Below, piece by piece: positions 25,771 through 57,736 of a stretch of DNA of 64,000 nucleotides. Both the position numbers and the translations under genes were made by a program. This DNA comes from Euphorbia lathyris (taxonomy: Eukaryota; Streptophyta; Magnoliopsida; Malpighiales; Euphorbiaceae). Location of the stretch: NCBI RefSeq assembly GCF_963576675.1, contig NC_088916.1, positions 56,731,001-56,795,000 of the forward strand, given 5' to 3'. Numbering within the stretch: the first letter of the stretch is position 1; every line of letters begins with the position of its first letter. The notes beneath the pieces were generated by a model, which was not told the origin of the DNA, did not search any database, and saw only the letters and a program-made list of their open reading frames with translations.

Positions 25771-25790
25771 TCCGTCGGGGATCCGTTTGC

Positions 25791-25800
25791 CTATAAAAGG
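25791..25800 (+). promoter_or_regulatory. TATA box of the solo LTR
   Basis: CTATAAAAGG lies right after the palindrome array. The equivalent position in the two full-element LTRs carries CTATATAAGG on the minus strand. Confidence 0.7.
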
Positions 25801-26473
25801 CACTGATCCCCATGCATTAGGGAGAGGATTCTTTTGGAGCTTTCTCACTCTCAACATTTTTAGAGAGAGAAAGTCAATTTTTTGGTGAAAATATTTTTTT
25901 TCCCAAAAAAATCCAAATTTTCCCAAAGTTAAATTTTTACTAAAAAACACAAAAAAACGGAAAATCACGACTCGTGGAATCAATCGGCTTCAACTGTCAG
26001 ATACCGAACTTAAGGTATTATCCGAGGACTAGACTCGCTTTATTTTATTTAATTTATTTCTTTCCTTTATTTATTTTTATGTTATAGTTTTTATTTATTT
26101 AGTTATTCATTTATTTTAACACGTTTTATTTAATTTTGCGTATTTATTTAATTTTCGTCTCGTGTTGAATAAAATTTGGTTTTGTTTTAAAATAAAAAAC
26201 CTCGTTTTGATATTACAATACGAACCGTGATCCGATAAAAAGGTAGTTCGGGTATTAAAAACGTTGTAATTATAAGTTTTTAATTTAAAGAAATTTCCAA
26301 ATAATGTTTTAAAATAAAAACGTCGTTTTAGGAACTTCCGTTATTGACTATGACCCATTTTTGGTAGTTCGGAAATCCGAAACGATTGAATTAGACTTAA
26401 TTTAAAGCTTTTGAATAAATCTGGAAACAATTGGAGTGCTGCTGTAATTTTCCGTTTCTGTCACTAATTGCTG

Positions 26474-26500
26474 TTTACCGACGGATTTTCCGTCGGTAAA
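26474..26500. repeat. Perfect 12-bp-stem hairpin in the LTR
   Basis: TTTACCGACGGA, three T, then its exact complement. The same hairpin is perfect in the LTR at 56380-56406 and has a two-base change in one arm in the LTR at 39412-39438. Confidence 0.7.
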
Positions 26501-32960: not shown

Positions 32961-34299
32961 TGTTGGTCCCTTGTTTAGTTGCAAGTATAGTTCCAAGGGG
33001 GGGTTAGGAACTATTTAAAGTTTTTTCGCAATTTAGGCAGACTTCTTTTTCTAAAGAAAAAGATTTGAACAGCGGCGCTGAGTAAACAGCAAGATACTGG
33101 CTTAGTCAATAGGTGACTAGGTCAGTTCCTCAGCTTGAGTCAGGAGATAGCACTTGGAGTCTATTCCTGAACTCAGACGTTCAACGCGCACAACTCAACT
33201 TGACCTCTTTACTTGGTCAGTTTTGATTATTTAAAGCAAGCAATATAAATTAGGAGTTAAGGTTTAGAAAAACTTCACTCAGCAGATTTATCCAGGTTCG
33301 GCTTCTTCTAAGCCTACGTCCTGTCCCCGGAACACCTCCGAGATTTCAAATCCTCTACTGAGCTCTTTAAAGGTAGAGCCTCAAACCTTTTACAATATCA
33401 GCAATTGAGTATGACAAGAGTACCTTCCTCTATACTTCTACTCAATCCTAATCTCTCCGCTGAGTACTTAAAACCGAGTACCCAGCCTCTCCTTTCTACT
33501 TCTAGAAATGATAAGGATTTTTGTCCTAACAACAATTGCTAGAACACCTTAGATGATTGAAAAACAATCACTCTAGACTTTTACACAGATATGAAAATGT
33601 AGTGTAAGAATTTTGCTTTGCTTCTTGCTTGCAGAACTTGTAGAGATTTGGTCAGCGTAATGGCTTGATCAAGTTCTGTGTGTTGTGAAGCTTGTGATGG
33701 CACTATTTATAGAGGCGTCTGGACATTCGGTCATTTCGAATTTCGAAATAACCGTTGGAGGGAAACGGCTATATGTCGTTGTCATCCTGACTTGCACAGA
33801 GCTCTTGGCCAATCACAATCGTGTATCTTCTGTCCTCGGTCAGCACAGCAGATGGTCTCTCCTTTTATGGTAAAGTCAACTGGACAGCATACTGTGTCGT
33901 CTGAACTTTGCTAAAAGAAGAAACACTTTGTCTGGAAGTTTTCCTTTGTCGGTCTGCTGTCTTGTACGCTTTGTCGAGACTACTCAGCAGCTTCATTGTG
34001 AAGTTGTTCCTGAAGGTCTTCTAGATCCTTCTGTTTGCTGAGTTGCGTTTTTTGTCCAAAACGACAACGTCTTGACATACGCGGGCCGAGTGTACTGAGT
34101 TGTTTGACTTGGGCCTTGGCTTCCGTATTGGGCTTGGGCCTTCCAATCCTTATGACTTATAACATTTATACTCAACATTGAACAAACACATTAGTAGAAT
34201 AAATCAACGCATTTAAACTTAGTGTGTTTAGAATATGTATTCTAATTTATACTTAAACAATTTTGTCAAATCAAAATTATGTGGAAAGGTGTTTCAACA
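32961..34299 (-). repeat. 3' LTR of the SIRE-like element, 1,339 bp
   Basis: Plus-strand ends are TGTTGGTCCC and GTGTTTCAACA. It matches the segment starting at 63037. Open frames at 33678-33914 also occur in the other LTR and are not genes. Confidence 0.9.
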
Positions 34300-37737: not shown

Positions 37738-37755
37738 GATTTATAGACGAGTTGA

Positions 37756-37760
37756 ACGGT
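37756..37760. repeat. Target-site duplication of the Ogre-like element (left)
   Basis: ACGGT, repeated at 57732-57736. Removing the element restores the SIRE spacer between pol and the third ORF. Confidence 0.9.
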
Positions 37761-40700
37761 TGTTAGACGAGGTGCCGCGGCCTAATCTCTCGGGCGGACC
37801 GGGGGGTGGACAACCTCATGGCGACATAAGCGGTGATTGGCGCCGAAAGCAACCAATCGCGGAATCAAGCTGCTCGGCAGGACCGGAGCTCGGAGATATG
37901 GAAGAGTCGCCACCCACGAATTGGAAAATGAACACCGATCCCTTGCGGGAGACCGGTGTGGGTTCGGGAAACTTAGGTACGAGCCGAGAAGGCTAGCTCC
38001 TTTCCGGAGAAAGGCTACTAGGCACCCCGACATCGCCCGGTTATGAACCACCGGCCTCCTACTCAGCATGTTAGGCGATAACGGACTAATCGTATACTTC
38101 TTTAAGTTTAAAATTCATTTGAAACCCTTTTCTTTCTCTTTTTGGAAACCATTTTGAGCATATGATATTGAAAAGCCACATCAGTAAAGAATCACCCATT
38201 TATGTTTATACATACACAGAGAGGGGGAAGAAAGAAGTGATTTATTTACAACCGTATTTAAATGTTATATTGTGTGTCTATTCTACATTAACTTATTTCC
38301 CCAAAACGATGTTTATTACATGGTTCGCACCTTAATCGCCGTTGGAACGATTCAGGTGCGTTTTAAAACCTCGTTTGATGAAGCTTACCCGAGTCGCCGT
38401 TGGAACGACTCGAGTAATTGAAAACGTTAAAGTAAAAGCCTTTTAATAAGAAAACGTGGTTAAACATGCAAGTCAATTTTATTTTGTACAAATTCATTAA
38501 GAAAGCGATTCAAAATCTCCATTATTAACAAAGAAAACGATTTTGGTTACAATGTTCGCTTAATCCGTCGTTGGAACGGACTAAGGTTTTAAAACGTGGT
38601 GTTTTGAAGACGATTTGAAATATCAACCAAAATGACTCTATTTATCTACATTAGAGATTTAAGAAAGCTCGTTAGCTTAAATAATTTAATTGAAAACTCT
38701 CTTTTTGTGACTTATTTTCCCCACTTGTTTAATGGACTCTCTAACTATTATAATTACATCAATAAACACATTTAGGCCCAAAAATTAATTTTGCCAAGTG
38801 AAGCCCATTTGAAACATGGACTTATAAATGACCAAAAGAAATAAAGAAAATAATATAGATATATATTTACACATTTTAGCCCAAAAGACATAAAATAAGA
38901 GTAAAAGAAAATATACTATCTAATACATATGTAAGAAAGAATAATGAAAATAATATATTTATACTTTAAACACAAGAAAATAGTGAATGAAATTCATAAA
39001 TAAGAAAATAGCATTTATCACTCAAAATAATTTTATTTAACAATAATTAAGATAACCCAAACATACCCCAAAACTATATATATACATAACTAATATAATC
39101 CTAATGGCAAAAGACTATATGTTCATCCCCCAATATCTACTAATTATCTCCCAAAATGCCCAAGTAAATAACATTTAAAATAGAATTTAATGTAATTTAA
39201 ATGAATAATAATAAAAAGAAAGTAATATGTATATATACAAAAAAATTAGAATAAAAATGGAATACCAATCTCCTAAAATAATTATATATGTTGAAGTTTT
39301 AAAACAATTTGAAAAGAATATATTACATAATTATATATATATATACTAAGGATTAAAAGTCTAAAAGTTAAGAAAAAGAGACCGAAATGACATTTTTTAC
39401 ATTTTGGCAGATTTACCAGCGGAAAATCCGTCGGTAAACAGCATTTAGTGACAGAATTGGCAAATTACAGCAGCACTCCAATATTTTCCAGATTTATTCA
39501 AAAGCTTTAAATTAAATCTAATTCAATCGTTTTGGACTTCCGAACTACCAAAGATGGATCATAGCCGAACACGGAAGTTCCTAAAACGAAGTTTTTATTT
39601 TAAAACGTTATTTGGAAACCTCTTTTAAATAAAAAAAACTTATAATTACAACATTTTCGATACCCGAACTACCTTTTTATCGGATCATGGTTCGTATTGG
39701 GATATCCAAAACGAGGTTTTTATTTTAAAACAAAACCGAATTTTATTTAACACGAAACGAAAATTAAATAAATACGTTAATTAAATAAAACGTGACAAAA
39801 TAAATAAATAACTAAAGGAATAAAAACTATAGCATAAAAAAAATAAATAGAAGGAGAGAATAAATTAAATAAAATAAAGAGTCTAGTCCTCGGATAATAC
39901 CTTTGATTCGGTATCTGACAGTCGAAGCCGATTGATTCCACGAACCGCGAGCTCCCGATTTTAATAAAAATTTAGTAAAAATTGAACTTAGGAAATTCGG
40001 AATTTTTGAGAAAAAAAAATATTTTTCTCAAAAAAATCCACTCTCTCTCTCTCTAAAAATGTTTAGAGTGAGAAAGTTTTTTTCCCCCAAAAAGGCCTCA
40101 AAAAGGCTCCTTTTCACCTTGGGATCCGTGCCCTTATATAGGGAAACGGATCCCGGAACAATGGGCGACGCCCAAAAAAAATTGGGCGTCGCCCATTGTG
40201 GTTGGGCGGCCGCCCAACAATGTTGGGCGATCGCCCAACGGCGTTGGGCGAGCGCCCAACGCGAGGTTGGGCGCCCGCGCCCAACCCTCGTCGGGCGTCC
40301 GCCCGACGCGTTGGGCGTTCGCCCGACGTAGTTGGGTGCCCGCCCGGTGACCCTCGGGGCGTGCCCCGCGCCGTCGGACGCGTGCACTCTGTGGCCGCCG
40401 AGCGCGCGTTCCGCGCAGCTAGACGCTCGCACGTCGCGGCCGCCGAACGCGCGCCTCCCGCTGCCAGGCACGTGTGCTCAACGGCCCACGAGGGCGCGCA
40501 CCGCCAGCGGTCCCAGGAATTGCTCGGGCGTCGAGAGCGTGCCACTCGCGGTGCGTCCGACGGACGCCGCGCGCACGTCTCGAGCCGTCAAGCGGGCGTT
40601 CGACCATCGTCGTCCGCGTGCGGGATGCCGTTGCGTGCCCGCGCCGTGCCGTTAATTTTCCTCAGCTTATTATTCTTTATATATTTTTCCAAACTTCCGG

Positions 40701-40764
40701 AATCAATCGCTTCGACCGTCTTGTTTCAGGTTTTCATCACAGGTCCTCCGACTCGGTGTCTACA
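37761..40764 (-). repeat. 3' LTR of the Ogre-like element
   Basis: Plus-strand ends are TGTTAGACGAGG and GGTGTCTACA. It is nearly identical to 54723-57731. Palindrome array at about 40161-40352 and TATA box at 40134-40140 (minus-strand TATATAA). Open frames in the GC-rich part (40028-40828) exist in several overlapping frames and are not genes. Confidence 0.95.
40161..40352 (-). promoter_or_regulatory. Palindrome array of the 3' LTR
   Basis: About nine GTTGGGCG-NN-CGCCCAAC-type units in the same place relative to the TATA box as in the solo LTR. Unit composition differs from that of the 5' LTR. Confidence 0.7.
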
Positions 40765-40780
40765 GTTGCCCCTACTTTTC
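40765..40780 (-). promoter_or_regulatory. Polypurine tract of the Ogre-like element
   Basis: GAAAAGTAGGGGCAAC on the minus strand directly before the LTR start TGTAGACACC. This fixes the element's orientation as minus. Confidence 0.75.
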
Positions 40781-41842
40781 TATTTTGACAGTGATGTGTG
40801 TGGTTCGAAAACGTTTTTGCTAACGTAACACATGCAATGTAAAACATATAAAAGTAAAAGACACGTAACGAGTAGGAGGAAACATACCTGACCTTTGCGC
40901 TGCGCGCTCTGGCATTGCTCTCTGACTGCATCAGACTCTGCTTTGGGCTGCACCCTAGTTCACGATTGCGGGGATAATGGCTAAATAGCTATCCTAGTTT
41001 ATGACCGCGGGGATAATGGCTAAACAGCTACCCTATTTCAAGATTACGGGGATAATGGCTAAACAGCTACCCTGATTTACGACTATGGGGATAATGGCTA
41101 AACCGCTACCTTAGTCTACGATCTTAGGTAAATATGGCTCAAAAGCAACTCCGGTCTGCGACCATGAGTCAGATGGCTCAAAAGCAACTCCGATCTGCGA
41201 CCGTGAGTCAGATGGCTCAAAAGCAACTCTGGTCCGCGACCGTGAGTCAGATGGCTCAAAAGCAACTCCGGTCTGCGACCGTGAGTCAGATGGCTCAAAA
41301 GCAACTCCGGTCTGCGACCGTGAGTCAGATGGCTCAAAAGCAACTCCGGTCTGCGACCGTGAGTCAAATGGCTCAAAAGCAACTCCGGTCTGCGACCGAG
41401 AGTCAAATGGCTCAAAAGCAACTCCGGTCTGCGACCGTGAGTCAAATGGCTAAAAAGCAACTTCGGTCTGCGACCGTGAGTCAAATGGCAAAAAAGCGGG
41501 TTCTGTTTCTGGATTTTCTTACCACACAGTTGTCTGTATTTTCTCACTAGAGCTATCATCTCGACGATTCGATGGGCACACGTCTGAGTCCGAAATGAAA
41601 TAGACTACTGATTGTTTTTCTGTTGACTGTTGTCTGTATTTCGACTGGTGTCACTGTTCTGTAAAAATTAGCTGTTGTCTGGAATTGATGTTTTGACAAT
41701 GTTAGTCACTGTCTGGGAGAAATGCAGGCTGAAACGGACTGCAAATCGGAGGTCTGTGCACCTGGTAATTAATTATTTACTTTTTACCTTTATGTCAAAT
41801 CGTACTTTTTTCACTATTTACGGGAATGTCATTCCCTTTTCC
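40781..41842. other. Ogre 3' region upstream of the antisense gene, with a 39-bp tandem array
   Basis: Apart from the tandem array (40950-41500) there is no coding similarity. The last 300 bases before the TATA box at 41843 would act as the proximal promoter of the plus-strand gene. Confidence 0.55.
40950..41500. repeat. Tandem array of about 14 copies of a 39-bp unit
   Basis: Units start with ATGGCT at 40977, 41016, 41055 and 41094, then every 39 bp from 41134 to 41485. Two subfamilies exist: ATGGCTAAACAGCTACCCT (first four) and ATGGCTCAAAAGCAACTCCG (the rest). As 39 is a multiple of three, the second subfamily is open on both strands, giving 13-residue repeats such as MAQKQLRSATVSQ on plus. 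I regard this as a minisatellite typical of Ogre 3' regions, not a gene. Confidence 0.85.
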
Positions 41843-41849
41843 TATATAA
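41843..41849 (+). promoter_or_regulatory. TATA box of the antisense plant-mobile-domain gene
   Basis: TATATAA in the context CCTATATAAGG, about 86 bases before the ATG. A CT-rich leader (CTTCTCTCTCCTCTTTCTCTC) starts about 35 bases downstream, as in many plant promoters. Confidence 0.65.
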
Positions 41850-41928
41850 GGTGGTGGGGTTTCATTTCAACCCCACACCTTCTCTCTCCTCTTTCTCTCA
41901 CTAGACTTCAATTTGGATTATTCTCGGG

Positions 41929-44922
41929 ATGGATTTAGACGAATGGGATGGCACCAAAGGCATGGACGAGGTTTACGTAAACCTGGATAGAGTGGATACC
42001 TTCCACGACCCTACAACACACTTGAGCAGGACACGCTGCAACGAGGTAAGTGGTTTCTCACTTTTATTTGATTTGAACTCTAGGATTTAGCACTCTTATA
42101 CGAACATGATTTGCATGCTAACTCTTAGACTACCTTAGAGGACCTTAGCTAGAAAACGTGAATTCCTTTATTTACACGTAACACCTGTTTGTTTTTGTAA
42201 GAATGCGCGCTATATGCATGTGAATAGTACACTACGAATTTATGCATGTTGACAGTAAAACCGATGTGAATAGTAAAAACGTGAATAGTGCACGTGAATA
42301 GTAAAAACTTAGCTAATACACATGAATAGTAAAACGTGAATAGTGCACGTGAATAGTAAAAACTTAGCTAATGCACGTGAATAGTAAAAACGTGAATAGT
42401 AAAAACTTAGCTAATGCACGTGAATAGTAAAAACGTGAATAGTAAAAACTTAGCTAATGCACGTGAATAGTAGAACCTAATCTATGCTCCTCGTCACCGC
42501 AGACGAGAGTGGATCAAAGAATTGACTCAACCTTACGTGAAGGACCCTACATGAGAGATTTTTACAGAAAATTGGTCCTAACTGACCGGATGTCTCTAGG
42601 TTAGAAAATGGAAGAATACCTAGTCTTAACGCGTTTTTTCAATTGCCTGCTTTAGGAGCTGTATTTAAATTTTCTTATCTTGTTCTTTTTTAGTTCATTG
42701 AGATTTCGGGGACCACCGCCGAGGTTCTCTCATGGTATGATAGGCTAGGTGCCGCGGCGAGAGCCCGTGTGCGCGAGTTGGGCTTCGAGCCCTTTATTGC
42801 AGCGCTGCCCCGCACCAACGGGGTATGCGATCCTTTTGGCCTACGGGCCTTATGCGAGCGGTGGGTTGACTCGACCCACACCTTCCACCTTTCCTTTGGG
42901 GAGATGACCATCTCGCCTCGAGATTTTTCACTGTTGACGGGATTGCGAGGGAGCAACACTCCCGTCCCTTTCCACTTTGGTATGATGCGACCACGGGTCG
43001 ACCCTGCTAGGCTTGCTACCTTGATTGGACCGGGAGTTCGTCTATGCGCCAAGTCTACTCCGGCGAAGTTTGTCTCTACCGCGAGCCTCTTGAGTAGACG
43101 TGATTTCTGCGAGACTGACGCTACCGACCTGGCGGTTCGTAGTTTCTTAGTATATGCTCTGAGTGAGACGATTTTCCGCACGAAGGGCGGGAAGGCACAC
43201 GCAGGTCTCATTCAGGCACTTAGCGATCTGGATGCAGCGGCTTCTTATGATTGGGCAGGGGCAGGCTTAGCCTTTCTTTACAAGTTCTTGGATCTGACTT
43301 GCCGGAAGCGCAAGGACTTCGGCGGTTATACCTTTGCCCTGCTGGTACGTGACGCCTTCTTGACTTATCCATCTTGTCTTTTTCGCATTTTTCACACTCC
43401 TAGTCCTCATTTTTACCGCAGGTGTGGGCGTACGAGAGACACATCCTTCCCAGCCGGTCTCGATCTCGACCGAGAGTGCCGAGGCTGCCATTTATGACTC
43501 GATGGAGGGACTTTGACTTGAGCGCTGAGAGGAGTCGGACAGTGTCGCGGCTTCTGGATCGGATCGACTCGCTGGCCCTGAGTCAGGTAGATTTTGCCCC
43601 ATCGTGCCAGATTTTGGTTTGAGCCTTTCTGACTTTCTCTTTGTGTATTTTGCTTTAGATTCAATTCAGGTGGGATGACCTCGACTTCGGCCCTGAGTAT
43701 GCATACGTGTCGATGATCCAGGAGCAGCAGTGTGTGCTCACCGGCCCCTGCGTGCGGGCGTGGTATCTAGGGGATCGAGTCATTACCGGGGTTAGAGACG
43801 CCCATTGGACGCCGGGTGAGATCCCCATCTCTATGTTCGCGGTACGGACTCTGCCCTTATCGACCATTCGTCGAGATCTGACCCGTCGTTTTGTCGGTAG
43901 AGTGGTCTGGATTCATGCCGGGGGCCGCGAGCCTTATTTGTCTACTTTACTGAGCGCGAGGGATGCCCCGGCGGCAGCGATGGAGGTAGATCCGGTGGCG
44001 GACGTGTTTTCGAGAGAGGCGGTCGAGGCCGTCTTTGGTCAGGTGGAGGTTCCGGTAAGTGATTCCGCCCCCTTTTCATTTTATTCATGATATGCTCGGA
44101 GGTTTTATTGTGTGTTTTTTTTTTGCAGGAGGGATCTTGGAGGAGTGCCCACTTATCTGATTTTTTTGATGGCACTCAGACTCAGACACCAGCGCGCGAG
44201 CAGCCCTACTTCGTCAGCGAGTCCTCCAGCACAGCCCGGCCGGAGAGATCGTCCATAGGCGTGCCTATACCAGGCTACGGGAGGGATTATGCTACGATCC
44301 GCTATGACGAGTCTGGGACACCTTATGCGGGATTTGAGGCGGCCCCTCCTATCTTCTCCTCGAGGGTCCCGTTTGATCCTTCGGATGCTTCACTGACCAC
44401 TAGGGAGACCTGTACAGACTACGTGGATCTATCCGGCTTCCTACGAGATTGCCTCAGCTTGTGCTGCACCGACCACCTGGTATGTATCATTACTGTACTT
44501 TAGTGTAGTGAAATGTATGCATGTATGTATGATTTATGTTTTTGCCTATGCTGCCTCTTATCTTTTTTTCTTTTTTTTTGTAGAGTGATCTTCGTGCCCA
44601 TGAGCGGAGACAGAGTGAGCTAGTGCGGGAAGCTGATGCCCGAGTTGGTCATGTGTATCAAGAGAGGAACGACCACTGGTCGGGGGTGATGCGATGGGAG
44701 ACTGAGGGTCGCCTTGCCATCGAGGAGAGGGCGCGTGATGAGTCGATCAGACGCCTTGCTGCAGAGGAGAGAGCACGAGCTGCTGATGAGAGAGCACGGG
44801 TTTCTGATGAGAGAGCGCGAGCTTCTGATGAGAGAGCGCGTGCTGCCGAGGAGACACTATTTGCGGAGCGGGCATCTCACCTGAGAGATTTTGAGAACTA
44901 TTGGGACTTCCCTCCGTATTAG
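41929..44922 (+). CDS. Seven-exon plant mobile domain (MAIN/aminotransferase-like) gene, antisense in the Ogre-like element
   Basis: Predicted exons are 41929-42045, 42503 to about 42598, 42694-43344, 43422-43586, 43659-44054, 44129-44479 and 44584-44922. Introns have GT...AG borders, with strong donors (GAG/GTAAGT, CTG/GTACGT, CCG/GTAAGT, CTG/GTATGT) and pyrimidine-rich acceptors, and nearly all lie in phase 0. The product is about 700 residues. Exon 3 holds the plant mobile domain signature LCERWVDSTHTFHLSFGEMT followed by LTGLRG, and exon 4 continues with VWAYERHILP. Exon 7 is a helical repeat rich in DERARA. This domain occurs in MAIN/MAIL1 silencing proteins and in plant transposons. All exons from 3 to 7 are open. 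The exon 2-3 junction is uncertain because the best donor is in the wrong phase. Confidence 0.8.
42240..42480. repeat. Tandem repeats of about 43 bp in intron 1 of the antisense gene
   Basis: A unit with ACTTAGCTAATGCACGTGAATAG and GTGAATAGTAAAAAC is repeated several times, with shorter degenerate pieces before it. It is located wholly within intron 1. Confidence 0.8.
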
Positions 44923-45384
44923 GCTCGTAGCTTTCATTGTTGCTTTGTAGCTTTTATTAGGGTTTCTCCGATGTATAGCTGATGTATAGGGAGTGGGGTG
45001 GATAGTAGGTAGGCTTTTTGTGAAAAGTAGGATAGGAAATGTATAACTCGTGATTCATATTACCATGCATTCAGTAGATTATGATGATTCCAATCATTCT
45101 CGTCAAATATATTCATGCCTTTATTTATTTACAAACAACAGAAATACTTAGTCTCTTATACATTGTTTTTGTAATTGCTCAAGTTATAACTATTGTTACC
45201 AGGACCCGCCTTTCGGTTTTCGGATCCCGGTGATTTTTCTCCTCTCCTTTTACTATCCCGGAATTTTTAAATGAGTGCCCTTTCGGGTTTTCACCCATTG
45301 GGATTTCCCTTATTGTTGCATAGGTCGCCCTTTGCGGGTTTTCAACCTATCGGGAATTTTTCTTTATTTATTTTTTTTTTTTTT
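44923..45384. other. Region between the antisense gene and the end of pol
   Basis: The first 200 bases would be the 3' untranslated part of the plus-strand gene. From 45196 to 45380 there are about three imperfect copies of a roughly 60-bp unit with CCCTTTCGGGTTTTCACCC, a type of repeat seen after pol in Tat elements. Confidence 0.5.
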
Positions 45385-47651
45385 TTACGAAAAGTATTTC
45401 TTAAGCCTATCCAGGTTGGTAGGTTCAGAGAATTCCATGCCGTCCATTGTGGTTAACTTCACCGCTCCTTTGCTTAGCATCTTTTTTACGACGAATGGTC
45501 CTTCCCAGTTAGGCCTGAACTTCCCTCTCGGGTCGGTGTGCGTCATACGGATCTGTTTCAGCACCAAATCTCCTTCTTTGATAGGGCTGGTCTTGACTTT
45601 TTTTTATTGAAAGCCCGAGCCATCCTTCTTTGATACAACTGTATATGGTAAAGAGCTTCCATCCTTTTCTCATCAACTAAAGCCAACTGCTCGCATCGCC
45701 TCTTTACCCATTCCGCCTCGGGAATTTCTGCTTCCACTGCGATTCTCAACGATCGCTTTTCAATCTCAATCGGCAAAAATGCTTCTGTTCCGTATACCAA
45801 GGAGAACGGCGTTGCCCCAGTCGAGGTTCTGACTGTCGTGCGATAAGCCCACAACGCGAGTGGGAGGTGCTCATGCCAGTTCCGATGTGATTCCACCGTC
45901 TTTACGAGGATCCTTTTAAGGTTCTTGTTAGCTGCTTCTACTGCCCCATTAGCCTGTGGACGGTACGGAGAAGACTTGTGATGTTCAATGCCATATTCTC
46001 GGAAAAAATTCCTTACTTCCCCCTGAAACTGGACCTCGTTATCCGTGATCATGTGATGAGGCACTCCGAACCTGGTGATCAAGTGTTTTTCAATGAACTT
46101 TCTCATCTGCCTGGATCCCAGTTTGCTAAACGACTCTGCTTCTACCCATTTGGTGAAATAATCGATGGCGACTGCAATAAACTTATGTCCATTTGAAGCA
46201 TTAGGCCTTACTTCACCGATGATCTCAATGCCCCAGGCAGCGAATGGCCAAATAGGTGCTAACACATGTAGTTCCATGGTCGGAAGATGACTGCAATCGT
46301 CGTGGATTTGGCAATCGTGACATTTCTTCACATACTCGTTACAATCTCTTTCCATGGTGAGCCAATAGAAGCCTTGCCTAATAATTTTCTTAGATAGTAC
46401 TACTCCTCCCATATGGGCTCCACAAATTCCCGAATGTACTGATTCCATCGCCTCACGGGCTTCCCCCGCATCCAAGCATCTGAGTTGTAATCCATCAACG
46501 TGCCTTTTGTAAAGCAAGTCGTTATGGATGACGAACTGACGAGCTAGCCTTCTAATCACAGCTTGATCCCTAGGTTCTGACTCTGCCGGATATGTTCCAT
46601 CTTTCATGAAGTTCACGATATCGAAATACCACGGTTTTTCATCTGCCCCTAACAGCATTACGTCTTCGTAGCACGGTTTGTGAGATCTTCTCAATACCAA
46701 TGGTTTCGAAGCAAGGTTCCGGGGGTTGTCCCAAACTGACACCAAAGTAGCCAAGGCATCCGCCGCCTGGTTCTGTGCTCGAGGAATATGATAGAAACGA
46801 CATTCCTTGAATCTTTGTGCCAACCCTTCTAGCTGATCTAGATATGGACGTAGCCTTTCTTCTCTCACTTCCCAGTTTCCTTGTGCCTGTTCGATGATCA
46901 ACTTGGAGTCGCCCTAAATTTCGACATATGACGCTCCCAGTGCCGCTAATGACTCCAAACCATAAATGCATGCTTCGTATTCGGCCATATTGTTGGTAAG
47001 GGGGAAGGATAACTTCTTCGCCATCGGGATTCTTTCTCCTTCTGGTGAGATAAGTAGTACTCCTACTCCGGCTCCACTCGAATTAACTGCTCCGTCGAAG
47101 AACATTTTCCATGGTATGACTTCGATTGCGTTCAAATGTTCATCGGGGAAATCATAGCTTACTTCTTCCTCTTCTGTATTCAGGGGTTGGTTAGCCAGAA
47201 ACTCTGCCACGGCCCTTCCTTTGATAACCTTCTTCGTCACATATTCAATGTCAAACTCGGACAAAAGCAACAACCATCTGGCTAACTTCCCCGTCAAGGA
47301 TGGAGTTCGGTATAGATACTTCACGGGGTCCATCCGAGAAATAATGATCACTTTATACGATTGGAAATAGTGCCGCAGTTTCTTCGTCAACCACACCACT
47401 GCCACACATGTCTTTTCGATCATGTTGTATTTGAGCTCATACTCTAGGAACTTCTTACTCAAATAATACACCGCGTGCTCCACACCGGTGTCTCCCTCTT
47501 GGGCCAACATTGCTCCAATAGATCGCTCTTCCATCGCTACATAGAGGAGAAGCGGCTTTCCCAGTTTAGGCGGTCTCAACACTGGCGGATTAGACAAGTA
47601 ACTTCGGACACTCTCCAACGCTTGTTGACACTTATCATTCCAAACGACGGG
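45385..47651 (-). pseudogene. Ogre-like pol, distal part: RNase H, second RNase H and integrase
   Basis: It continues in frame after a TAA stop at 47652-47654. The first RNase H includes LLLYVAMEERSIGAMLAQ and KLRHYFQSYKV. The second, archaeal-type RNase H of the Tat lineage starts with WKMFFDGAVNSSGAGVG, has NNMAEYEACIYGL, is interrupted by TAG at 46914-46916 and continues GDSKLIIEQ and ADALATLVS. The integrase has an intact HHCC zinc site (VHSGICGAHMGG ... CNEYVKKCHDCQ). The first catalytic block reads WGIEIIG, with Glu where Asp is expected, followed by ITDNEVQF and NGAVEAANK with their Asp and Glu. A one-base change in a T-run at about 45600-45610 shifts the frame; the C-terminal tail (45385-45567) with PRGKFRPNWEGPFVV is in the new frame. 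No chromodomain is visible. Confidence 0.9.
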
Positions 47652-49946
47652 TTAGTCTTTCCTTAACAATTTAAAGATTGGCTCGCAGATTGTGGTGAGT
47701 CTTGCTATGAACCGACTGATATACTGAACTTGCCCCAGAAACCCCCTCACTTCCTTTTCATTTCTCGGCGCTGGCATTTCCTTTATAGCCTTTACTTTAT
47801 CAGGATCTACCTCGATTCCCTTATTTCCGATTACGTAACCTAAGATTTTCCCCGACGAAACGCCGAAAAAGCACTTCTTCGGGTTTAACCTTAGCTTGAA
47901 TTCTGCAATTCGGGCCAAAAACTTCTCGAGTGCGGCAAAATGCCCTTCTCTTGACTCTGATTTGACCATCATGTCATCCACGTAGACTTCTACTTCCTTG
48001 TGTATCATGTCATGGAACAGGGCTGTGGCCATTCGCTGGTAGGTTGCCCCGGCATTTTTCAAACCAAATGGCATCACTCTGTAACAGTATGTTCCCCACT
48101 CTGTTGTGAACGAGGTTTTCGCTTTGTGCTTTTCGGCCATCTGAACTTGCATGTAGCCCATGAAACCATCCACATTTGTGTGTAAGACGCTTGATGCTGC
48201 ACTGTCGATCAATACATCGATATGAGGCAAGGCGAACTCATCCTTGGGGCATGCTTTGTTAAGATCTCTGTAATCCACGCACATCCTCACTTTGCCATCC
48301 TTTTTCGCGATGGGCACTACATTTGCGACCCAAGGGGGATAGTCGATCACTTCGATGAATCCTGCTTCTAACTGCTTCTTCACCTCCTCTCTGATCTTAT
48401 CTGCCCATTCGGGTCTCATACGTCGGAGCTTCTGCTTTACGGGCCTTGCCTCGGGATATGTTGGAATACGGTGAGTTACGATTGATTGATCGATTCCAGG
48501 CATGTCTTCGTATGTCCAAGCGAATACAATTTCGTATTTTTTAATTATTCTCTCAAATTCTTTTCTCTCTTCAATAGTTAATTCTTGAGCAATTTGTATA
48601 AGTTTAGGATTTTCATCCGTACCAAGATTGAAAGTTGACATTTCTATTGTATTGATTTCAAATGTAGGCATGTTATATGAATGAGAATGCATGGAATGAT
48701 CATGATCAACATCAAGCAAGTAAGCAAAATCAGAATTCATTTCATTGATAGCGTGGGTGATTACATCATTAGACTCAAACAAAGCAGTAATACAATTTTC
48801 ATCCTCAATATCTTCGGACTTCTCATATACTCTCGAGGTACTAGGCTCAATTTCAGCTCCTGTAGCCGCTTCAATGGTAATGACCTGCTCCTCGGCATTT
48901 GAATCCAGCATCATGATCTCCTCGACAAAGCAGTTTGCCTTTCCTTTGCCCCAGTCGGCGACATCATTGAAGATTTCAAACCCTGGCAGAATCTTTCCTT
49001 CCGTGCTAGTCCACGACTCGGAGGTTCCCGAATATGGCTTTCCATGCCCCTCGCTTACAAAATGCTTCCTCAAGCCTATTTTTCCTTCTGCACTCATGTT
49101 GGATGGACTCCCCTGCTCATATCCCAAACCCCTCCGGGTTTTCTGACTTTTAAAATCCGGAAACTCCGACAACCCTTGATGGTGTGCTCCTAATCCCATT
49201 CCCGGGATGAAACCTCCTTTCATCATCTTCACCACATCGGTGGTCATGCTCGATTCGTAAATCCCGGAGACTTGGAATCCGGAGAAAAGTTGAGGCTCAA
49301 TTCCCAATGCTGCCACCGAGCTCAGTTTCTCAGCTCTAATTGTAACTATCTCCTCCCCGAAGGGGAACTTAATCATTTGGTGGAGTGTGGAGGGCACACC
49401 TCCCAGCTTGTGGAACCAAGGGTGTCCCAACAATACAACAAAAGTTACCGGGATGTCCAACACTGTGAACTCAGTCTCTTCCTCATGCGGCCCTACTTTC
49501 AACTTGGCCTTAAAAACTCCTTCAATATGCCTACGGCTGTCATCGTATGCTCTGATCACTGTTTCAGAAGCTGTCAAGTCTCCTCTCTCCACTCCTAACT
49601 TGGACAAGAGCTTCAAAGGACAAACATTAATGGCCGATCCGTCATCGACCATAACACAGCTAGTCTTCTTCCCGTTAATTTCCGCTCGGATATACAATGG
49701 CTTATTGTGAGCCTTCCCCTCTTCTAGGAGATCCTCATCGGTAAATGTGATCTCAGTCCTCTTTCGGGCCATAATTGCCCCTACTAGCGCTGCCGGCTCC
49801 GTGTCGGTGGAAATAACCAAATTCTGCAACTCCTTCATCAGGTTCTCACGATGGTACTTAGAATGGCATAAAACTTCCCAGACCGTAGACTTAGCTTGCG
49901 TCTTCTGCAACTGTTCAAGAACTTGGTCATCGGGCTTAGGAGCCGA
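47652..49946 (-). CDS. Ogre-like pol, proximal part: protease, G-patch, reverse transcriptase
   Basis: Residues about 946-1709 of the long gag-pol frame. The aspartic protease is at about 1025-1130, with the active-site block VMVDDGSAINVCPL. A G-patch-like motif is at about 1182-1222 (MMKGGFIPGMGLG ... RRGLGYEQG), which in other proteins binds RNA. After an acidic linker, the reverse transcriptase lies at about 1450-1700, with CVDYRDLNKACPKD, MPFGLKNAGATYQ and the catalytic YVDDMMVKS. The first Asp block reads HTNVDGFMGYMQ, close to consensus. The frame ends at a TAA at 47652-47654 where a sense codon is expected, since the RNase H follows in the same frame. Confidence 0.9.
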   Translation of the reverse strand, partial: SAPKPDDQVLEQLQKTQAKSTVWEVLCHSKYHRENLMKELQNLVISTDTEPAALVGAIMARKRTEITFTDEDLLEEGKAHNKPLYIRAEINGKKTSCVMVDDGSAINVCPLKLLSKLGVERGDLTASETVIRAYDDSRRHIEGVFKAKLKVGPHEEETEFTVLDIPVTFVVLLGHPWFHKLGGVPSTLHQMIKFPFGEEIVTIRAEKLSSVAALGIEPQLFSGFQVSGIYESSMTTDVVKMMKGGFIPGMGLGAHHQGLSEFPDFKSQKTRRGLGYEQGSPSNMSAEGKIGLRKHFVSEGHGKPYSGTSESWTSTEGKILPGFEIFNDVADWGKGKANCFVEEIMMLDSNAEEQVITIEAATGAEIEPSTSRVYEKSEDIEDENCITALFESNDVITHAINEMNSDFAYLLDVDHDHSMHSHSYNMPTFEINTIEMSTFNLGTDENPKLIQIAQELTIEERKEFERIIKKYEIVFAWTYEDMPGIDQSIVTHRIPTYPEARPVKQKLRRMRPEWADKIREEVKKQLEAGFIEVIDYPPWVANVVPIAKKDGKVRMCVDYRDLNKACPKDEFALPHIDVLIDSAASSVLHTNVDGFMGYMQVQMAEKHKAKTSFTTEWGTYCYRVMPFGLKNAGATYQRMATALFHDMIHKEVEVYVDDMMVKSESREGHFAALEKFLARIAEFKLRLNPKKCFFGVSSGKILGYVIGNKGIEVDPDKVKAIKEMPAPRNEKEVRGFLGQVQYISRFIARLTTICEPIFKLLRKD

Positions 49947-52781
49947 CCCTTCTCCAATCTCAGTCTCTACCATTGGTGCCTTTCCTTCGGCCACACGACC
50001 TGATCTTGTCATCACCGCAACTTCCGGCTCGTCATCCGACTCGTCCCAAATGTTGATAGGGATCTTCCGATTGGCATCCTCCTCGTCAGAGGAACTCGCC
50101 CAGATGTCTACGACCATTAAATCCATGACGTGAGGAACACTCGGATTCAGGAAAAAGGGATCCGCCGATCCATACAAGGCCCAACCTATCAACTCATCAT
50201 AGTCACGGAGGGACACTCTACTCATCCTTCTTGCGGCCAACGGAATAGCGCCTCGTTGTATGCACATAAGCTGCACCTTATCGCTCATTGTCTCATTACA
50301 CCGCTCATAACGGTGCCTCCACCTCCTAGCATAATCCACAAAATGTTCCTCGGGGAATTGCCTAATCCTGTCCAAATCATCCAGGGATCCCGTCCACGGA
50401 ATGTACATTTCGTATCTCGCCACAAAGGCATTTCTGAGTGGTACCCAATGACACATCTCTTCCTCCGACAGACCCTGATGCCACAATAAGGCTTCTCCCA
50501 TCAAGGTTTCCGGAAAATGTTCATGCAACTCACACTGTGGGAATCCAGCGTTATACATATGATCGCGGAATATCCTCGCATGCTCTACAGGATCCCGGTA
50601 TCCACCATACCTAGGCATTGCTAATACCGCATCAGGTGTTTGGTAAGACGGGGAATCAGGAGTTTGCTCTGCTAGCATCCATACCGTATGTTCCTTGATA
50701 AATCTCTTCGTCATAGCTGCCCAATCAGTCTTAACATACATCGGCAGCGACATGTACCACATCAGCGGTTCACCCATCAATGAATTACAAAACAAGCTAG
50801 TGATCTCTTCCTCTTTGAAACCCAAGGCTGTCATAGCCGACAAATAGAAGTGAAGGTGCTCCATAGGGTCCTTATTGCCGTTATACTTGCTCACCCTTGG
50901 CAATGGACGCTTGATGGGTCCAATCTGCATTGCAAAGTGCTCCGCGGTTCTATCCTCAGCTCTCTGATACTTTTCAAGAAACAAATCTGACAACCGATCC
51001 CAATCGTGCTTGCAAGAGTCGGGCAATGAATGGAACCACTGCCAAGGCTCCCCTACCAGCGAATGGTGGAACCACTGAGCAATTTCAACTACCCCAAAGG
51101 ATTCAATAAACATGTCATGCATATATTCACGCAAGTGCACTTCGGGATCCCTTCCTCCACTGAACAAACCCAAATTTGGCACGATAGTCCGAGACGCCCC
51201 TTCACCGGTCTCTTCGGCACTATCCTCGTCATATGGTGCTCCACCATCTGATCCCTCCTCCATTGGTTCTTCCTCTTGTTCCTCACCCAAGAAGGACACA
51301 TACAAACCATTTCCCACATTGCTTCTTTCGACGGAGTCCAACAACTCCTCTACATCTTCCTCAAAAGATTCCATCACTACAGTTTCCGTCAAACCAACTC
51401 CGATCATGCTTACCCTATGATTAGGCAATGGATTGCGCCTCACGGAAGGGTTTGCGGATGAAGGATCAGCTATCTTCTTCTCCTCAATCAAATCTTGGAT
51501 TTCGTGTTTCAGCCTCTCACAATTCTCAATCGTATGTCCATAACTGCTGTGGAATTCACAATACCCTCTAGCCTGAATCTGCGGAGTAGGTTGAGCTTTG
51601 TTATACGGGGTAAGGGCTTTCAACAACCCCTTCTTCTGCAGACGTTCAAAAACCTTTGCGTAAGTCTGGTCGAACTTGGCGAACCGCCTCTTTTCGATAG
51701 CATTAAGATCAACCACTTTCACTGTCGCAGATTCCGTACTCGCGCTAGGCCCTCCGGCACTATATCCAGACTTCGTCCACTTGGTATAAGCTTTCTTCGG
51801 CTCCCCATCACCTTCGACAGTCAAGGCACAACTATACATCTGATTGAAATCCGTGAACGGCATATACCGCAACTCATTCTTGATATACGGCAACGTGTTG
51901 CCAACCACCATTCGGATCTGATCCTGCTCGAGCGGCTTTTGTTTCATGACCGCGGCCTTAGCCCTCCATCTCTTCACGAAGTCTGAAAGGGATTCCCCAG
52001 TCTGCTGCTTAGTGCTCTCTAACTCTTTCAAAGTGACTTCCAACATGGTGTTAAAACTATACTGAGCGATGAATGACTTCGCTAACTCCTTCCAATCCTT
52101 CTTTGTCACCATTGGCAGCGCATGGAACCATGTGAGGGCAGCCCCCTCCAGGTAAGTGTTAAACAGCCCCAAGACTTGATCCTCGGTCAGGATCGTGTGC
52201 TTCATTACCGCAACGTACTGATTCATAGGAGCGGAGGGATCTCCAGTTCCATCGAACTTTTTCATGTCAGGGAGTCGGAATTTCAGAGGCAAAGCTGTTG
52301 CTGTCAAGCAATTCTTCAAGTTATATAAATCTTGACTCCCAGAGCTTCCTCCGCGCAAGTCCTGCACTTCTTGTGTGATGTGTTGCCTCCACTCCTCTTC
52401 CTTAGCTTTCTCCTTCTCTAACTGTTTTCGGACATAATCCTGATAATCCTCCTCATTCCCAAAGCGAGGGCCATCGTTCACCTCATTCTCAGCACGCTTA
52501 CTACCACTCTTGTTGTCCTTTAGTGCTAACTCAGCTAGCTGGGCCAAGATTGTGGCCAGCTGATCATTGATATTGTTCACAGAATTCTCCAATTCAGCCA
52601 CTTTCTCGTCGGTCGCAGACATACTGGCGGAAGACTGAGTATACTCAGATGAAGACGATTCAGAAGCCACAACTGCTGATTCGGGACTGTCTACTCGCAA
52701 CTGATCAAACTGTCTGACAAGCCGATCACTCTCGCGAAACCACAACCGCTTAATGATGACGTCTGCGCGAACGGTATCCAT
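49947..52781 (-). CDS. Ogre-like gag with four successive capsid-like segments
   Basis: The ATG at 52781 opens a 1,709-codon frame; its first 945 residues are gag. A coiled-coil-like start (about 55-140) is followed by a complete capsid region at 165-325 (FDGTGDP ... YLEGAALTWFHALP ... W). Next is a CEFHSSYGHTIENC knuckle at 408-421. Then come three more segments with the same order of motifs: 535-605 (SGGRDPEVHLREY ... LVGEPWQWFHSLP ... W), 620-695 (NGNKDPMEHLHFY ... LMGEPLMWYMSLP ... W) and 720-870 (GGYRDPVEHARIF ... LMGEALLWHQGL ... W). The last has a C-terminal half as well (FVDYARRWRHRYERC). An acidic stretch separates the first from the others. The whole region is open. Capsid assignment of the repeats is from motif order only. 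Confidence 0.85.
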
Positions 52782-54701
52782 TAGTATGTATGCATGGTTT
52801 TATATGCATGATTCGTGGTGTGTGCGTTTATTTATTTACGATTATAAGATAAGAAGAACAAACGTTAGTTCTATTTACACGTATCACAACATCTCTCTTC
52901 CACCCTTATTCCTCCACACACTCGTTGGTCCAGGTCTCTTTCCTAGGATTTTGGTTTTTTGGCTCACATTGCGGTCCAGGGGACGCGTGATGCCGTCGAT
53001 TATTATGGGAAAGTAAATCAACCATCAGACAATACAGTTCGTTTTGACGTATCCATATTCAGTGACTCAGAAATCGACCAAGTTGGATTGTCCTTTCGGA
53101 ATAACTCGTCTTTCGTCCTTTCGTGAGACGCATTAATTCGGGTTTTGACTCCCTTTGAGCGCATCTCAGTTTTTAGACGTGGTTCGAGTTATTCTTCTAG
53201 TCCAATCGTTCGTTATTGTCAATGACTCGTTCCCTTTTGTTCGCGTGGATTCGTGTATCGATTTTTGGATTACAACGGGACCTTTTGGATCTGTTGAGAG
53301 ACGTAACCACGTGTTTATTTAGTGATGGAATCACTTTTGGATTTTATTTTAGGGAACGGACTCATCGCGTAACGCGTTTGTTCTTAGCGTCGAGGATCCG
53401 TTTGCTCATTTTGCTACGTGAAAAGACGGCGAGTCTTATTTTGAGCGCACGATAATCTTTCGGCTAATTATAACTCTTTGTTCCTCCCAATCCACGGGAT
53501 ATATCATCTCAGTGTGGTTATAGAAAATCAACATTTCGTTGAATCGCGTGTTTATTCGAAGCGAGGATATCACCGTTTTCCTTCCTTTAGGCACGATTTA
53601 AGCAAACACGTATATCGGGCCATATTTCTTGCAGTTTTGGTAACGGTCGAAATGATCGAGTCGTTAGTCAAAACCCGCAGTCTCGTCCATATAGCGCAAT
53701 TATATGGTTTGGCTTAATTCGGCTTCGAGATTTTAAATGGGGTATACACTCGTTCGAGGCACGTATTCAACGGTATTGGTTTATTTTCTTTAACTACTCT
53801 CGGGATTGACATATATCGTAGATTCGGAATGATTTTGGTCGTTTAGTTCATTTTTCGCTTTTCTTCTCTTAGTCACCTTTTGCGGACACGTCCATTTCTC
53901 TTAAGAATGACACAAGGCATAACGTAAAAGCTCGTCTTTTATTCGGAAGGGACGGGCTACTTGTGCGAAACTTTTCACGTTACAACAAGGTCGTTCGAAA
54001 CAGAAATGTTCTTCGTTTTCGTTTCGTCGTGATCTCGTTTTATCCCAATTTATTTCAAGAATGTGAATAACGGCTACCGTTAATATAGTCTTTTGTATCG
54101 AAATATAACTATCCTTAATACCGAACTGATTCATACTAATACGTGCTTACGTCATAACGTATTTCCTGAACACGTGCCTTCATCGGGACACCGAAAGGGA
54201 CAAGGCGGGTTGCACATGTTCATTCATATGAGATGACTAAGTTGTCTTTAGTTCAAATCGTTTCGATGTTTTAGGGTAATTAGTATGTCGATTCATGAGT
54301 ATATATTAACGCATCGTCTCATTTTCTTTACATAGTTTTAGGATTAGACACGTATCATGGCGGTTTGAAAACACGAACTGATTCATTTATCACATCAAAA
54401 ATAGTAACGGGTAATCCTATGGAAACTTCTAAGGCTACTATATGCTGACACGGCTGACCGCGGGACCTCACAGGACCGCACAGATTCGCCCCTAACGAAT
54501 GGATGGGGACCCTCTGGCGCTTTACTGTAAGGGGGAACTTACGCTATCCTCTTTCGAGCTGACGAATGGACTCTCGCTAGAGGTTTCGTGGAAATTACCC
54601 AAAGGGTTTGCAATAATGCTCGTGAATGCATACGAAAAGAAGTAAAACGATCCGTCCCCATTAAGGGCTTAGTGCATGCCTTCCGGAATCAAATTTCTCG
54701 C
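52782..54701 (-). other. Ogre leader between PBS and gag, no ORF1 seen
   Basis: About 1.9 kb with only short open frames (for example 53216-53455 and 53478-53717 on plus, 53901-54134 on minus), none resembling the extra ORF1 found here in some Ogre elements. The sequence is noticeably rich in TCG/CGA. It presumably carries the packaging and translation leader. Confidence 0.55.
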
Positions 54702-54720
54702 TTCCCCAGCAGAGTCGCTA
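54702..54720 (-). promoter_or_regulatory. Primer-binding site of the Ogre-like element
   Basis: On the minus strand TAGCGACTCTGCTGGGGAAG begins two bases inside the 5' LTR. It closely resembles the TGGCGACTC-type primer sites of Tat/Ogre elements, reported as complementary to a tRNA-Arg end in Ogre. I could not check the pairing tRNA. Confidence 0.65.
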
Positions 54721-57097
54721 CTTGTTAGACGAGGTGTCGCGGCCTAATCTCCCGGGCGGACCGGGGGGTGGACAACCTCATGGCGACATAAGCGGTGATT
54801 GGCGCCGAAAGCAACCAATCGCGGAATCAAGCTGCTCGGCAGGACCGGAGCTCGGAGATATGGAAGAGTCGCCACCCACGAATGGGAAAATGAACACCGA
54901 TCCCTTGCGGGAGACCGGTGTGGGTTCGGGAAACTTAGGTACGAGCCGAGAAGGCTAGCTCCTTTCCGGAGAAAGGCTACTAGGCACCCCGACATCGCCC
55001 GGTTATGAACCACCGGCCTCCTACTCAGCATGTTAGGCGATAACGGACTAATCGTATACTTCTTTAAGTTTAAAATTCATTTGAAACCCTTTTCTTTCTC
55101 TTTTTGGAAACCATTTTGAGCATATCATATTGAAAAGCCACATCAGTAAAGAATCACCCATTTATGTTTATACATACACAGAGAGGGGGAAGAAAGAAGT
55201 GATTTATTTACAACCGTATTTAAATGTTATATTGTGTGTCTATTCTACATTAACTTATTTCCCCAAAACGATGTTTATTACATGGTTCGCACCTTAATCG
55301 CCGTTGGAACGATTCAGGTGCGTTTTAAAACCCCGTTTGATGAAGCTTACCCGAGTCGCCATTGGAACGACTCGAGTAATTGAAAACGTTAAAGTAAAAG
55401 CCTTTTAATAAGAAAACGTGGTTAAACATGCAAGTCAATTTTATTTTGTACAAATTCATTAAGAAAGCGATTCAAAATCTCCATTATTAACAAAGAAAAC
55501 GATTTTGGTTACAATGTTCGCTTAATCCGTCGTTGGAACGGACTAAGGTTTTAAAACGTGGTGTTTTGAAGACGATTTGAAATATCAACCAAAATGACTC
55601 TATTTATCTACATTAGAGATTTAAGAAAGCTCGTTAGCTTAAATAATTTAATTGAAAACTCTCTTTTTGTGACTTATTTTCCCCACTTGTTTAATGGACT
55701 CTCTAACTATTATAATTACATCAATAAACACATTTAGGCCCAAAAATTAATTTTGCCAAGTGAAGCCCATTTGAAACATGGACTTATAAATGACCAAAAG
55801 AAATAAAGAAAATAATATAGATATATATTTACACATTTTAGCCCAAAAGACATAAAATAAGAGTAAAAGAAAATATACTATCTAATACATATGTAAGAAA
55901 GAATAATGAAAATAATATATTTATACTTTAAACACAAGAAAATAGTGAATGAAATTCATAAATAAGAAAATAGCATTTATCACTCAAAATAATTTTATTT
56001 AACAATAATTAAGATAACCCAAACATACCCCAAAACTATATATATACATAACTAATATAATCCTAATGGCAAAAGACTATATGTTCATCCCCCAATATCT
56101 ACTAATTATCTCCCAAAATGCCCAAGTAAATAACATTTAAAATAGAATTTAATGTAATTTAAATGAATAATAATAAAAAGAAAGTAATATGTATATATAC
56201 AAAAAATTAGAATAAAAATGGAATACCAATCTCCTAAAATAATTATATATGTTGAAGTTTTAAAACAATTTGAAAAGAATATATTACATAATTATATATA
56301 TATATATATATACTAAGGATTAAAAGTCTAAAAGTTAAGAAAAAGGGACCGAAATGGCATTTTTTACATTTTGGCAGATTTACCGACGGAAAATCCGTCG
56401 GTAAACAGCATTTAGTGACAGAATTGGCAAATTACAGCAGCACTCCAATATTTTCCAGATTTATTCAAAAGCTTTAAATTAAATCTAATTCAATCGTTTT
56501 GGACTTCCAAACTACCAAAGATGGATCATAGCCGAACACGGAAGTTCCTAAAACGAAGTTTTTATTTTAAAACGTTATTTGGAAACCTCTTTTAAATAAA
56601 AAAACTTATAATTACAACATTTTCGATACCCGAACTACCTTTTTATCGGATCATGGTTCGTATTGGGATATCCAAAACGAGGTTTTATTTTAAAACAAAA
56701 CCGAATTTTATTTAACACGAAACGAAAATTAAATAAATACGTTAATTAAATAAAACGTGACAAAATAAATAAATAACTAAAGGAATAAAAACTATAGCAT
56801 AAAAAATATAAATAGAAGGAGAGAATAAATTAAATAAAATAAAGAGTCTAGTCCTCGGATAATACCTTTGATTCGGTATCTGACAGTCGAAGCCGATTGA
56901 TTCCACGAACCGCGAGCTCCCGATTTTAATAAAAATTTAGTAAAAATTGAACTTAGGAAATTCGAAATTTTTGAGAAAAAAAAATATTTTTCTCAAAAAA
57001 ATCCACTCTCTCTCTCTCTAAAAATGTTTAGAGTGAGAAAGTTTTTTTCCCCAAAAAGGCCTCAAAAAGGCTCCTTTTCACCTTGGGATCCGTGCCC

Positions 57098-57104
57098 TTA
57101 TATA
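57098..57104 (-). promoter_or_regulatory. TATA box of the Ogre-like element
   Basis: TATATAA on the minus strand in CCTATATAAGG, just after the palindrome array. Transcription toward gag would begin roughly 30 bases further left, near 57070. Confidence 0.7.
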
Positions 57105-57123
57105 GGGAAACGGATCCCGGAAC

Positions 57124-57322
57124 AATGGGCGACGCCCAAAAAAAAGTGGGCGTCGCCCATTGTGGTTGGGCGGCCGCCCAACCTAGTGTTGGGCTACCGC
57201 CCAACCTTGTTGGGCGGCCGCCCAACGGCGTTGGGCGAGCGCCCAACGCGAGGTTGGGCGCCCGCGCCCAACCCTCGTCGGGCGTCCGCCCGACGTAGTT
57301 GGGTGCCCGCCCGGCGACCCTC
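57124..57322 (-). promoter_or_regulatory. Palindrome array of the 5' LTR
   Basis: About nine GTTGGGCG-NN-CGCCCAAC-type palindromes immediately upstream of the TATA box. Compared with the 3' LTR, it has an added unit with TA in the centre and lacks the GTTGGGCGTTCGCCCGAC unit. Confidence 0.7.
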
Positions 57323-57731
57323 GGGGCGTGCCCCGCGCCGTCGGATGTGTGCACTCTGTGGCCGCCGAGCGCGCGTTCCGCGCAGCTAGACGCTCGCACG
57401 TCGTGGCCGCCGAACGCGCACCTCGCGCTGCCAGGCACGTGTCCTCAACGGCCCACGAGGGCGCGCACCGCCAGCGGTCCCAGAAATTGCTCGGGCGTCG
57501 AGAGCGTGCCACTCGCGGTGCGTCCGACGGACGCCGCGCGCACGTCTCGAGCCGTCAAGCGGGCGTTCGACCATCGTCGTCAGCGTGCGGGATGCCGTTG
57601 CGTGCCCGCGCCGTGCCGTTAATTTTCCTCAGCTTATTATTCTTTATATATTTTTCAAAACTTCCGGAATCAATCGCTTCGACCGTCTTGTTTCAGGTTT
57701 TCGTCACAGGTCCTCCGACTCGGTGTCTACA

Positions 57732-57736
57732 ACGGT
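57732..57736. repeat. Target-site duplication of the Ogre-like element (right)
   Basis: ACGGT, identical to 37756-37760. Confidence 0.9.

Follow-up and report, generated by a model that had tools for sequence, protein, structure and literature searches.

Results

A Spliced Gene Antisense to gag-pol

The window analyzed here, a 64,000-nucleotide stretch of the Euphorbia lathyris genome (NC_088916.1, positions 56,731,001 to 56,795,000 of the forward strand), contains a Tat-lineage long terminal repeat (LTR) retrotransposon and, within it, a gene for a plant mobile domain (PMD) protein (Table 1). This gene (41929–44922, plus strand) is antisense to gag-pol and sits between the 3′ LTR (37761–40764) and the end of pol (45558–52799, minus strand), which is the layout of an antisense additional open reading frame (aORF) of the aORF-3R class.

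The gene model has six coding exons, with 672 codons free of stops, and introns of 648, 77, 72, 74, and 104 bases. From the PMD exon through the last exon, 633 codons and a stop codon are joined across four GT-AG phase-0 introns, in agreement with an earlier note on this DNA, which had read about 630 open codons over these exons from the sequence alone. The note's assignment of a plant mobile domain was confirmed by a search of the large exon, which matched PF10536 with 72 bits (E 6.5e-20), the Pfam cut-off being 34.9 bits; the E. lathyris protein P0001 (704 amino acids, 81% identity across 100% of the window's 633 residues) reached 89 bits. In P0001 and P0004 exon 1 (...RTRCNE) runs directly into the PMD exon (FIEISGT or FLEISGT), and joints 2 to 5 are found again in other E. 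lathyris models, the exceptions being an insert at one joint in P0004 and an alternative donor in P0002. These homologues are NCBI gene models, some labelled isoforms, and we infer that there is RNA support behind them. Three NCBI models on one E. lathyris contig (P0004, P0008, and P0009) have PMD exons fused to a gag-like exon set; the PMD exon itself is left out of P0008 and P0009.

The seven exons of the earlier note are reduced to six. Its exons 3 to 7 were right, but its exon 2 (42503–42599) was rejected: at 97 nt it puts the PMD exon out of phase so that a stop is met at once, it is skipped in the NCBI models of two related loci (P0001 and P0004), and among copies of the gene elsewhere in the genome it has no codon constraint, with nonsynonymous (N) to synonymous (S) counts of 9 N : 6 S for private variants and 9 N : 3 S for shared ones. 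The TATATAA at 41843, the CT-rich leader that follows it, and the ATG at 41929 are present in the sequence as described. The view that TATATAA is the gene's own TATA box holds only in part. The motif is kept in most copies (Table 1), but P0001 has an upstream exon, and the matching window exon, if spliced from its end at 41764 to 41905 (phase 0), would leave TATATAA inside an intron. Given such an exon, TATATAA may serve just one of two starts, and either or both starts may be in use. The donor GT of the upstream exon is kept in the 47 copies having an alignable 5′ end.

Table 1. Features of the retrotransposon and its antisense gene, in window coordinates
Feature	Coordinates	Strand	Basis or remark
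Tat-lineage Ty3/gypsy LTR retrotransposon, 19,971 bp	37761..57731	-	LTR pair, target site duplication, reverse transcriptase, RNase H, RVT_3, integrase, and gag domains
Target site duplication ACGGT, 5 bp, left	37756..37760		sequence
Target site duplication ACGGT, 5 bp, right	57732..57736		sequence
3′ LTR, ~3.0 kb	37761..40764	-	match to 5′ LTR
39-bp tandem array, 4.4 copies	40952..41121		repeat search
39-bp tandem array, 9.3 copies, upstream of antisense gene	41134..41497		repeat search
Possible upstream coding exon (alternative N terminus), phase 0	41699..41764	+	homologous to P0001 first exon
TATATAA, candidate TATA box	41843..41849	+	exact in 46/49 copies
Coding exon 1	41929..42045	+	shared variants 1 N : 10 S; spliced to PMD exon in P0001, P0004
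Intron 1 array of 9 exact GTGAATAGTA motifs, every one in the gene's orientation	42220..42472	+	9 in window vs 0.15 expected
Coding exon 2, plant mobile domain	42694..43344	+	PF10536; shared variants 17 N : 73 S
Coding exon 3	43422..43586	+	open frame, homologue joints, variant counts
Coding exon 4	43659..44054	+	open frame, homologue joints, variant counts
Coding exon 5	44129..44479	+	open frame, homologue joints, variant counts
Coding exon 6, long-helix region containing 21-bp repeats; little or no constraint	44584..44922	+	shared N/S 1.69
gag-pol, single frame, 2 in-frame stops	45558..52799	-	three adjoining same-frame open reading frames, domains
Putative primer binding site TAGCGACTCTGCTGGGGA	54703..54720	-	sequence read
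5′ LTR, ~3.0 kb	54723..57731	-	match to 3′ LTR

Introns Are Kept in All Fetched Copies

Searched with the 217-residue PMD exon, the 1.02-Gb genome yielded 3421 first-look candidates. The best 150 of these, the window included, were scored and are 96–100% identical, 145 of them without a stop; ranking by score biases this set toward intact copies. Leaving the window aside, 149 PMD hits remain, and at least 25 of them lie ~5 kb from a reverse transcriptase (RT) hit in the opposite orientation, as judged by eye among 150 scored RT hits, and the best 150 of the 18,783 RT candidates, again ranked by score, contain no stop. At one locus (C1:73729843–73802381 of assembly G000) six near-identical PMD exons lie on one strand at a spacing of ~14–15 kb, like a tandem array of elements.

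For closer comparison 49 copies besides the window were fetched. L027 and L029, whose 5′ part is rearranged or lost, were excluded from the dN/dS, variant, and splice counts, and in 29 copies (L010–L038) the stretch ends near base 44844, which cuts the last exon there. All five introns are present in every one of the 49, so that no processed copy is among them, and in the 47 counted copies the splice dinucleotides are canonical at 465 of 470 positions, compared with 4830 of 5140 internal GT/AG dinucleotides that are unchanged. The start, splice sites, and frame are kept over the covered part in 17 of the 49, and the remaining 32 fail this test of intactness. The contrast drawn in the earlier note between a broken gag-pol and an intact PMD frame is therefore true of the window copy but not of most others.

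An intact frame with introns in one young copy might also have come from a host gene caught once, or from open frames arising by chance. The thousands of candidates, the at least 96% identity of the best 150 scored, the PMD hits beside opposite-strand RT, and the introns and frame common to the copies refute both, and we give them practically no weight.

The introns recur at greater depth. In two members of the subfamily of P0005 (L059 and L060) they stand at the same positions as in the window gene with diverged sequence; the L059 stretch starts within intron 1, placing the first donor outside view, and has a shortened exon 3, and L060 has one stop. With the third exon cut one base short, omega is 0.116 and 0.142 for L059 and L060 at near-saturated dS values of 1.9 and 1.6. 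The opposite-strand integrase behind L060 is 90.6% identical over 381 columns (omega 0.043, dS 1.16). The proposal that antisense introns persist through retrotransposition is thus borne out in the near copies and in the deep subfamily alike.

A further element (L064/L065, C4:74.67 Mb) has an RT dS of 0.05 but a PMD exon dS of 0.63, both against the window. The RT dS of L062 is 1.06, and the search pattern used did not pick up the L063 PMD exon. The L064/L065 values hint at an exchange of the 3′ region between element lineages, and as a single case they leave it at a hint.

The PMD Protein Was Constrained while Copies Spread

Computed across 48 sequences (1128 pairs), dN/dS comes to 0.175; restricted to the four exons that played no part in the ranking, it is 0.21. 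In the six-exon frame, variants private to one copy have an N/S of 2.00 and variants common to at least two copies an N/S of 0.51 (p 3.3e-18); without the ranking exon the values are 2.26 and 0.64 (p 7e-12). The neutral expectation, with transitions weighted 4:1 over transversions, is 2.40, to which the private value is close, and private variants mostly arose after insertion. Shifted frames give a reversed pattern, the reverse frame that mirrors the codon positions gives the same pattern, as it must, and the introns, read in three frames, show no significant difference between private and shared N/S. A low N/S among shared variants and a near neutral one among private variants suggest a protein constrained along the multiplying lineages that decays after insertion, and from these comparisons we conclude that the PMD protein was under selection while the element multiplied. 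The dN/dS comparison across copies, which the earlier note had named as a check on its reading, came out in the gene's favor, as did the shared N/S and the omega values of the deep subfamily.

Three observations weigh against this conclusion. Synonymous divergence (0.114) exceeds intron divergence (0.027–0.089), the last exon is almost unconstrained (N/S 2.05 private, 1.69 shared), and exon 3 taken alone is not significant (p 0.075).

It could be argued that the antisense RNA alone matters, through control of the element by double-stranded RNA or small interfering RNA (siRNA), with the open frame as a passenger. Antisense transcripts of LTR elements have been discussed as possible siRNA sources (PMC7264820), and phased siRNAs from PMD genes are reported in tea (PMC10673657). 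The constraint on shared variants is nevertheless specific to the frame, and omega is 0.12–0.14 across deep subfamilies. These data refute antisense RNA as the sole explanation, which we consider highly improbable; the RNA may act in addition.

Predicted Fold and Intron 1 Array

The predicted fold of the PMD protein has a sole clear match in the PDB, the anti-silencing factor VANC21. DUF1985, a domain of VANC anti-silencing proteins, was not matched in P0001, P0005, or P0007; of 38 PMD proteins taken more widely, 14 had weak matches to it. The window element lacks the VANC21 motif. Intron 1 has a motif array of its own, and a one-direction GTGAATAGTA array occurs in 48 of the 49 copies, with at least three motifs in each, and at four further loci.

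These two features bear on what the protein does. It might serve the replication cycle as an accessory factor without any part in silencing, for example in moving the integration complex into the nucleus, in LTR transcription, or in integration targeting. The position and strand of the gene are those of the Grande, RIRE2, and Retand aORFs, for which nuclear or regulatory roles have been proposed (PMC7264820, PMC11963269), and purifying selection is compatible with any such role. A VANC21-like predicted fold and an intron motif array are compatible with it too but would not be expected from it, and we regard a purely replicative function as rather unlikely.

A 31-row tree, built without Arabidopsis MAIN/MAIL1 and without labelled PMD-A sequences, separates the window PMD by a 100/99 branch from the loci of the same genome taken as host-type or MULE-like (Mutator-like element). 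The suggestion of the earlier note that the element carries a host-like silencing modifier is not upheld by this placement. It also tells against a decoy that would compete, via its PMD, with the host MAIN/MAIL1-PP7L silencing complex and so act on a partner protein rather than on DNA. MAIN and MAIL1 are PMD proteins required for silencing of transposable elements (TEs) and bind PP7L (PMC7156037, PMC8616336), and anti-silencing by captured PMDs has been suggested for MULEs (PMC5418596). Given the distance of the window PMD from host-type loci, and a Pfam PMD profile that in P0001 is matched only at positions 21–242 of 347, we hold a decoy to be distinctly improbable.

The Host Element and Its Surroundings

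The minus-strand gag-pol encodes gag, RT, RNase H, a second RNase H (RVT_3), and integrase; RT_RNaseH is followed by RVT_3, the second, archaeal-type RNase H, and then by integrase, the order of the Tat lineage. The two in-frame stops fall in pol. A division of gag and pol by a spliced region, as in Ogre, was not found, since gag to RT forms one 1715-residue frame; "Ogre-like" is still a fair label, although the element lacks the Ogre gag/pol intron. The LTRs are 97.4–97.8% identical (blastn), and their Kimura two-parameter distance of 0.0098 (MAFFT alignment) would place the insertion at about 0.4 million years ago at a substitution rate of 1.3e-8. The primer binding site is presumably tRNA-Arg-like.

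The element is inserted in a copia element, whose LTR parts flank it. This host element has RVT_2 at 58084–59571 and LTR parts at 32961–33900 and 63037–63977 (99% identical over 941 bases), and its 3′ part contains a sense open reading frame (35971–37740, minus strand) with Transposase_32 (PF20167), like reported SIRE-type extra open reading frames. At 25110–28224 lies a second LTR of the Tat-element family, inverted and diverged (two pieces, with 89% and 75% identity), and clustered direct and inverted repeats of 105–438 nt occupy 19749–21262.

Discussion

We think it very probable, from the comparison of copies, that the element carries an antisense, spliced PMD gene whose introns persist and whose protein was selected during spread. 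As an accessory gene it would be spliced from its own plus-strand transcript and would yield a PMD protein of ~672 residues, or an N-extended one, ending in a long C-terminal helix. In the sense genomic RNA the splice sites of an antisense gene go unread, and the introns therefore pass through reverse transcription unchanged; selection on the protein acted as copies spread. The antisense layout would in this way account for intron retention in a retroelement, and the selection result shows that the protein, beyond any antisense RNA, mattered for the spread of copies.

What the protein does is a more tentative matter. A VANC-like DNA-binding factor would recognize the one-direction motif array in its own first intron and would counteract silencing of the element family, a role to which we assign appreciably less than an even chance. 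The spliced antisense accessory gene and the VANC-like factor taken together are the best explanation as a whole, at a probability that falls just short of even. If this mechanism is true, it would give a function to the commonest extra gene of Ogre-type elements, a major component of some plant genomes, and would tie the plant mobile domain to a solved DNA-bound structure. A bolder view, which we find doubtful, is that retrotransposon PMD proteins and VANDAL VANC factors form one anti-silencing superfamily, with the window protein binding the GTGAATAGTA array. Since the gene is antisense, the array would reach every daughter copy unspliced, and gene and operator would travel together; the host silencing proteins MAIN and MAIL1 would on this view be related to a weapon against silencing.

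Several parts of this picture are already published: the presence of PMD genes in Ogre elements, the PMD-A clades, antisense aORFs that have their own promoter, and the idea of counter-silencing by TE-encoded PMDs. The spliced antisense architecture, the test of selection during spread, the link to the VANC21 fold, and the one-direction GTGAATAGTA intron array appear to be new. No description of a spliced antisense PMD gene or of a PMD-VANC21 fold link was found in a literature search that left subscription papers mostly outside.

Comparison with Known Systems

The PMD, whose function is described as unknown in PMC8616336, is reported in 57% of Ogre elements (PMC6317226), and the PMD-A1 and PMD-A2 clades are described as exclusively Gypsy-encoded (PMC5418596). 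TE-made PMDs have been proposed as a counter-silencing strategy (PMC8616336). The window gene resembles the PMD-A genes in being a PF10536 gene in a Tat-lineage element of an angiosperm. Those genes were surveyed as extra open reading frames, with uninterrupted frames of at least 250 codons counted (PMC6317226), whereas the window gene is spliced from six exons and tested for selection. A spliced PMD gene would be missed or cut by such a count, and spliced accessory genes would in general escape surveys by frame length.

Grande gene23 and the aORFs of RIRE2 and Retand are likewise antisense, lie between pol and the 3′ LTR, and stand beside tandem repeats (PMC7264820); gene23 is reported to have a promoter of its own and to encode a nuclear protein (PMC7264820). 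The Retand aORFs mostly encode Transposase_28 (PMC11963269), whereas the window gene encodes a PMD and has introns.

The window gene and VANC21 of VANDAL21 both have a short motif arrayed in one direction within an intron of the gene itself and a variable part bearing repeats, and the fold predicted for the window protein would be a further likeness. It differs in the DUF1985 and motif results given above, and VANDAL21 is a DNA transposon, whereas the window element is an LTR retrotransposon. MAIN and MAIL1 have the plant mobile domain in common with the window protein but are host genes for TE silencing, and the tree sets the window PMD apart from the host-type loci of the same genome.
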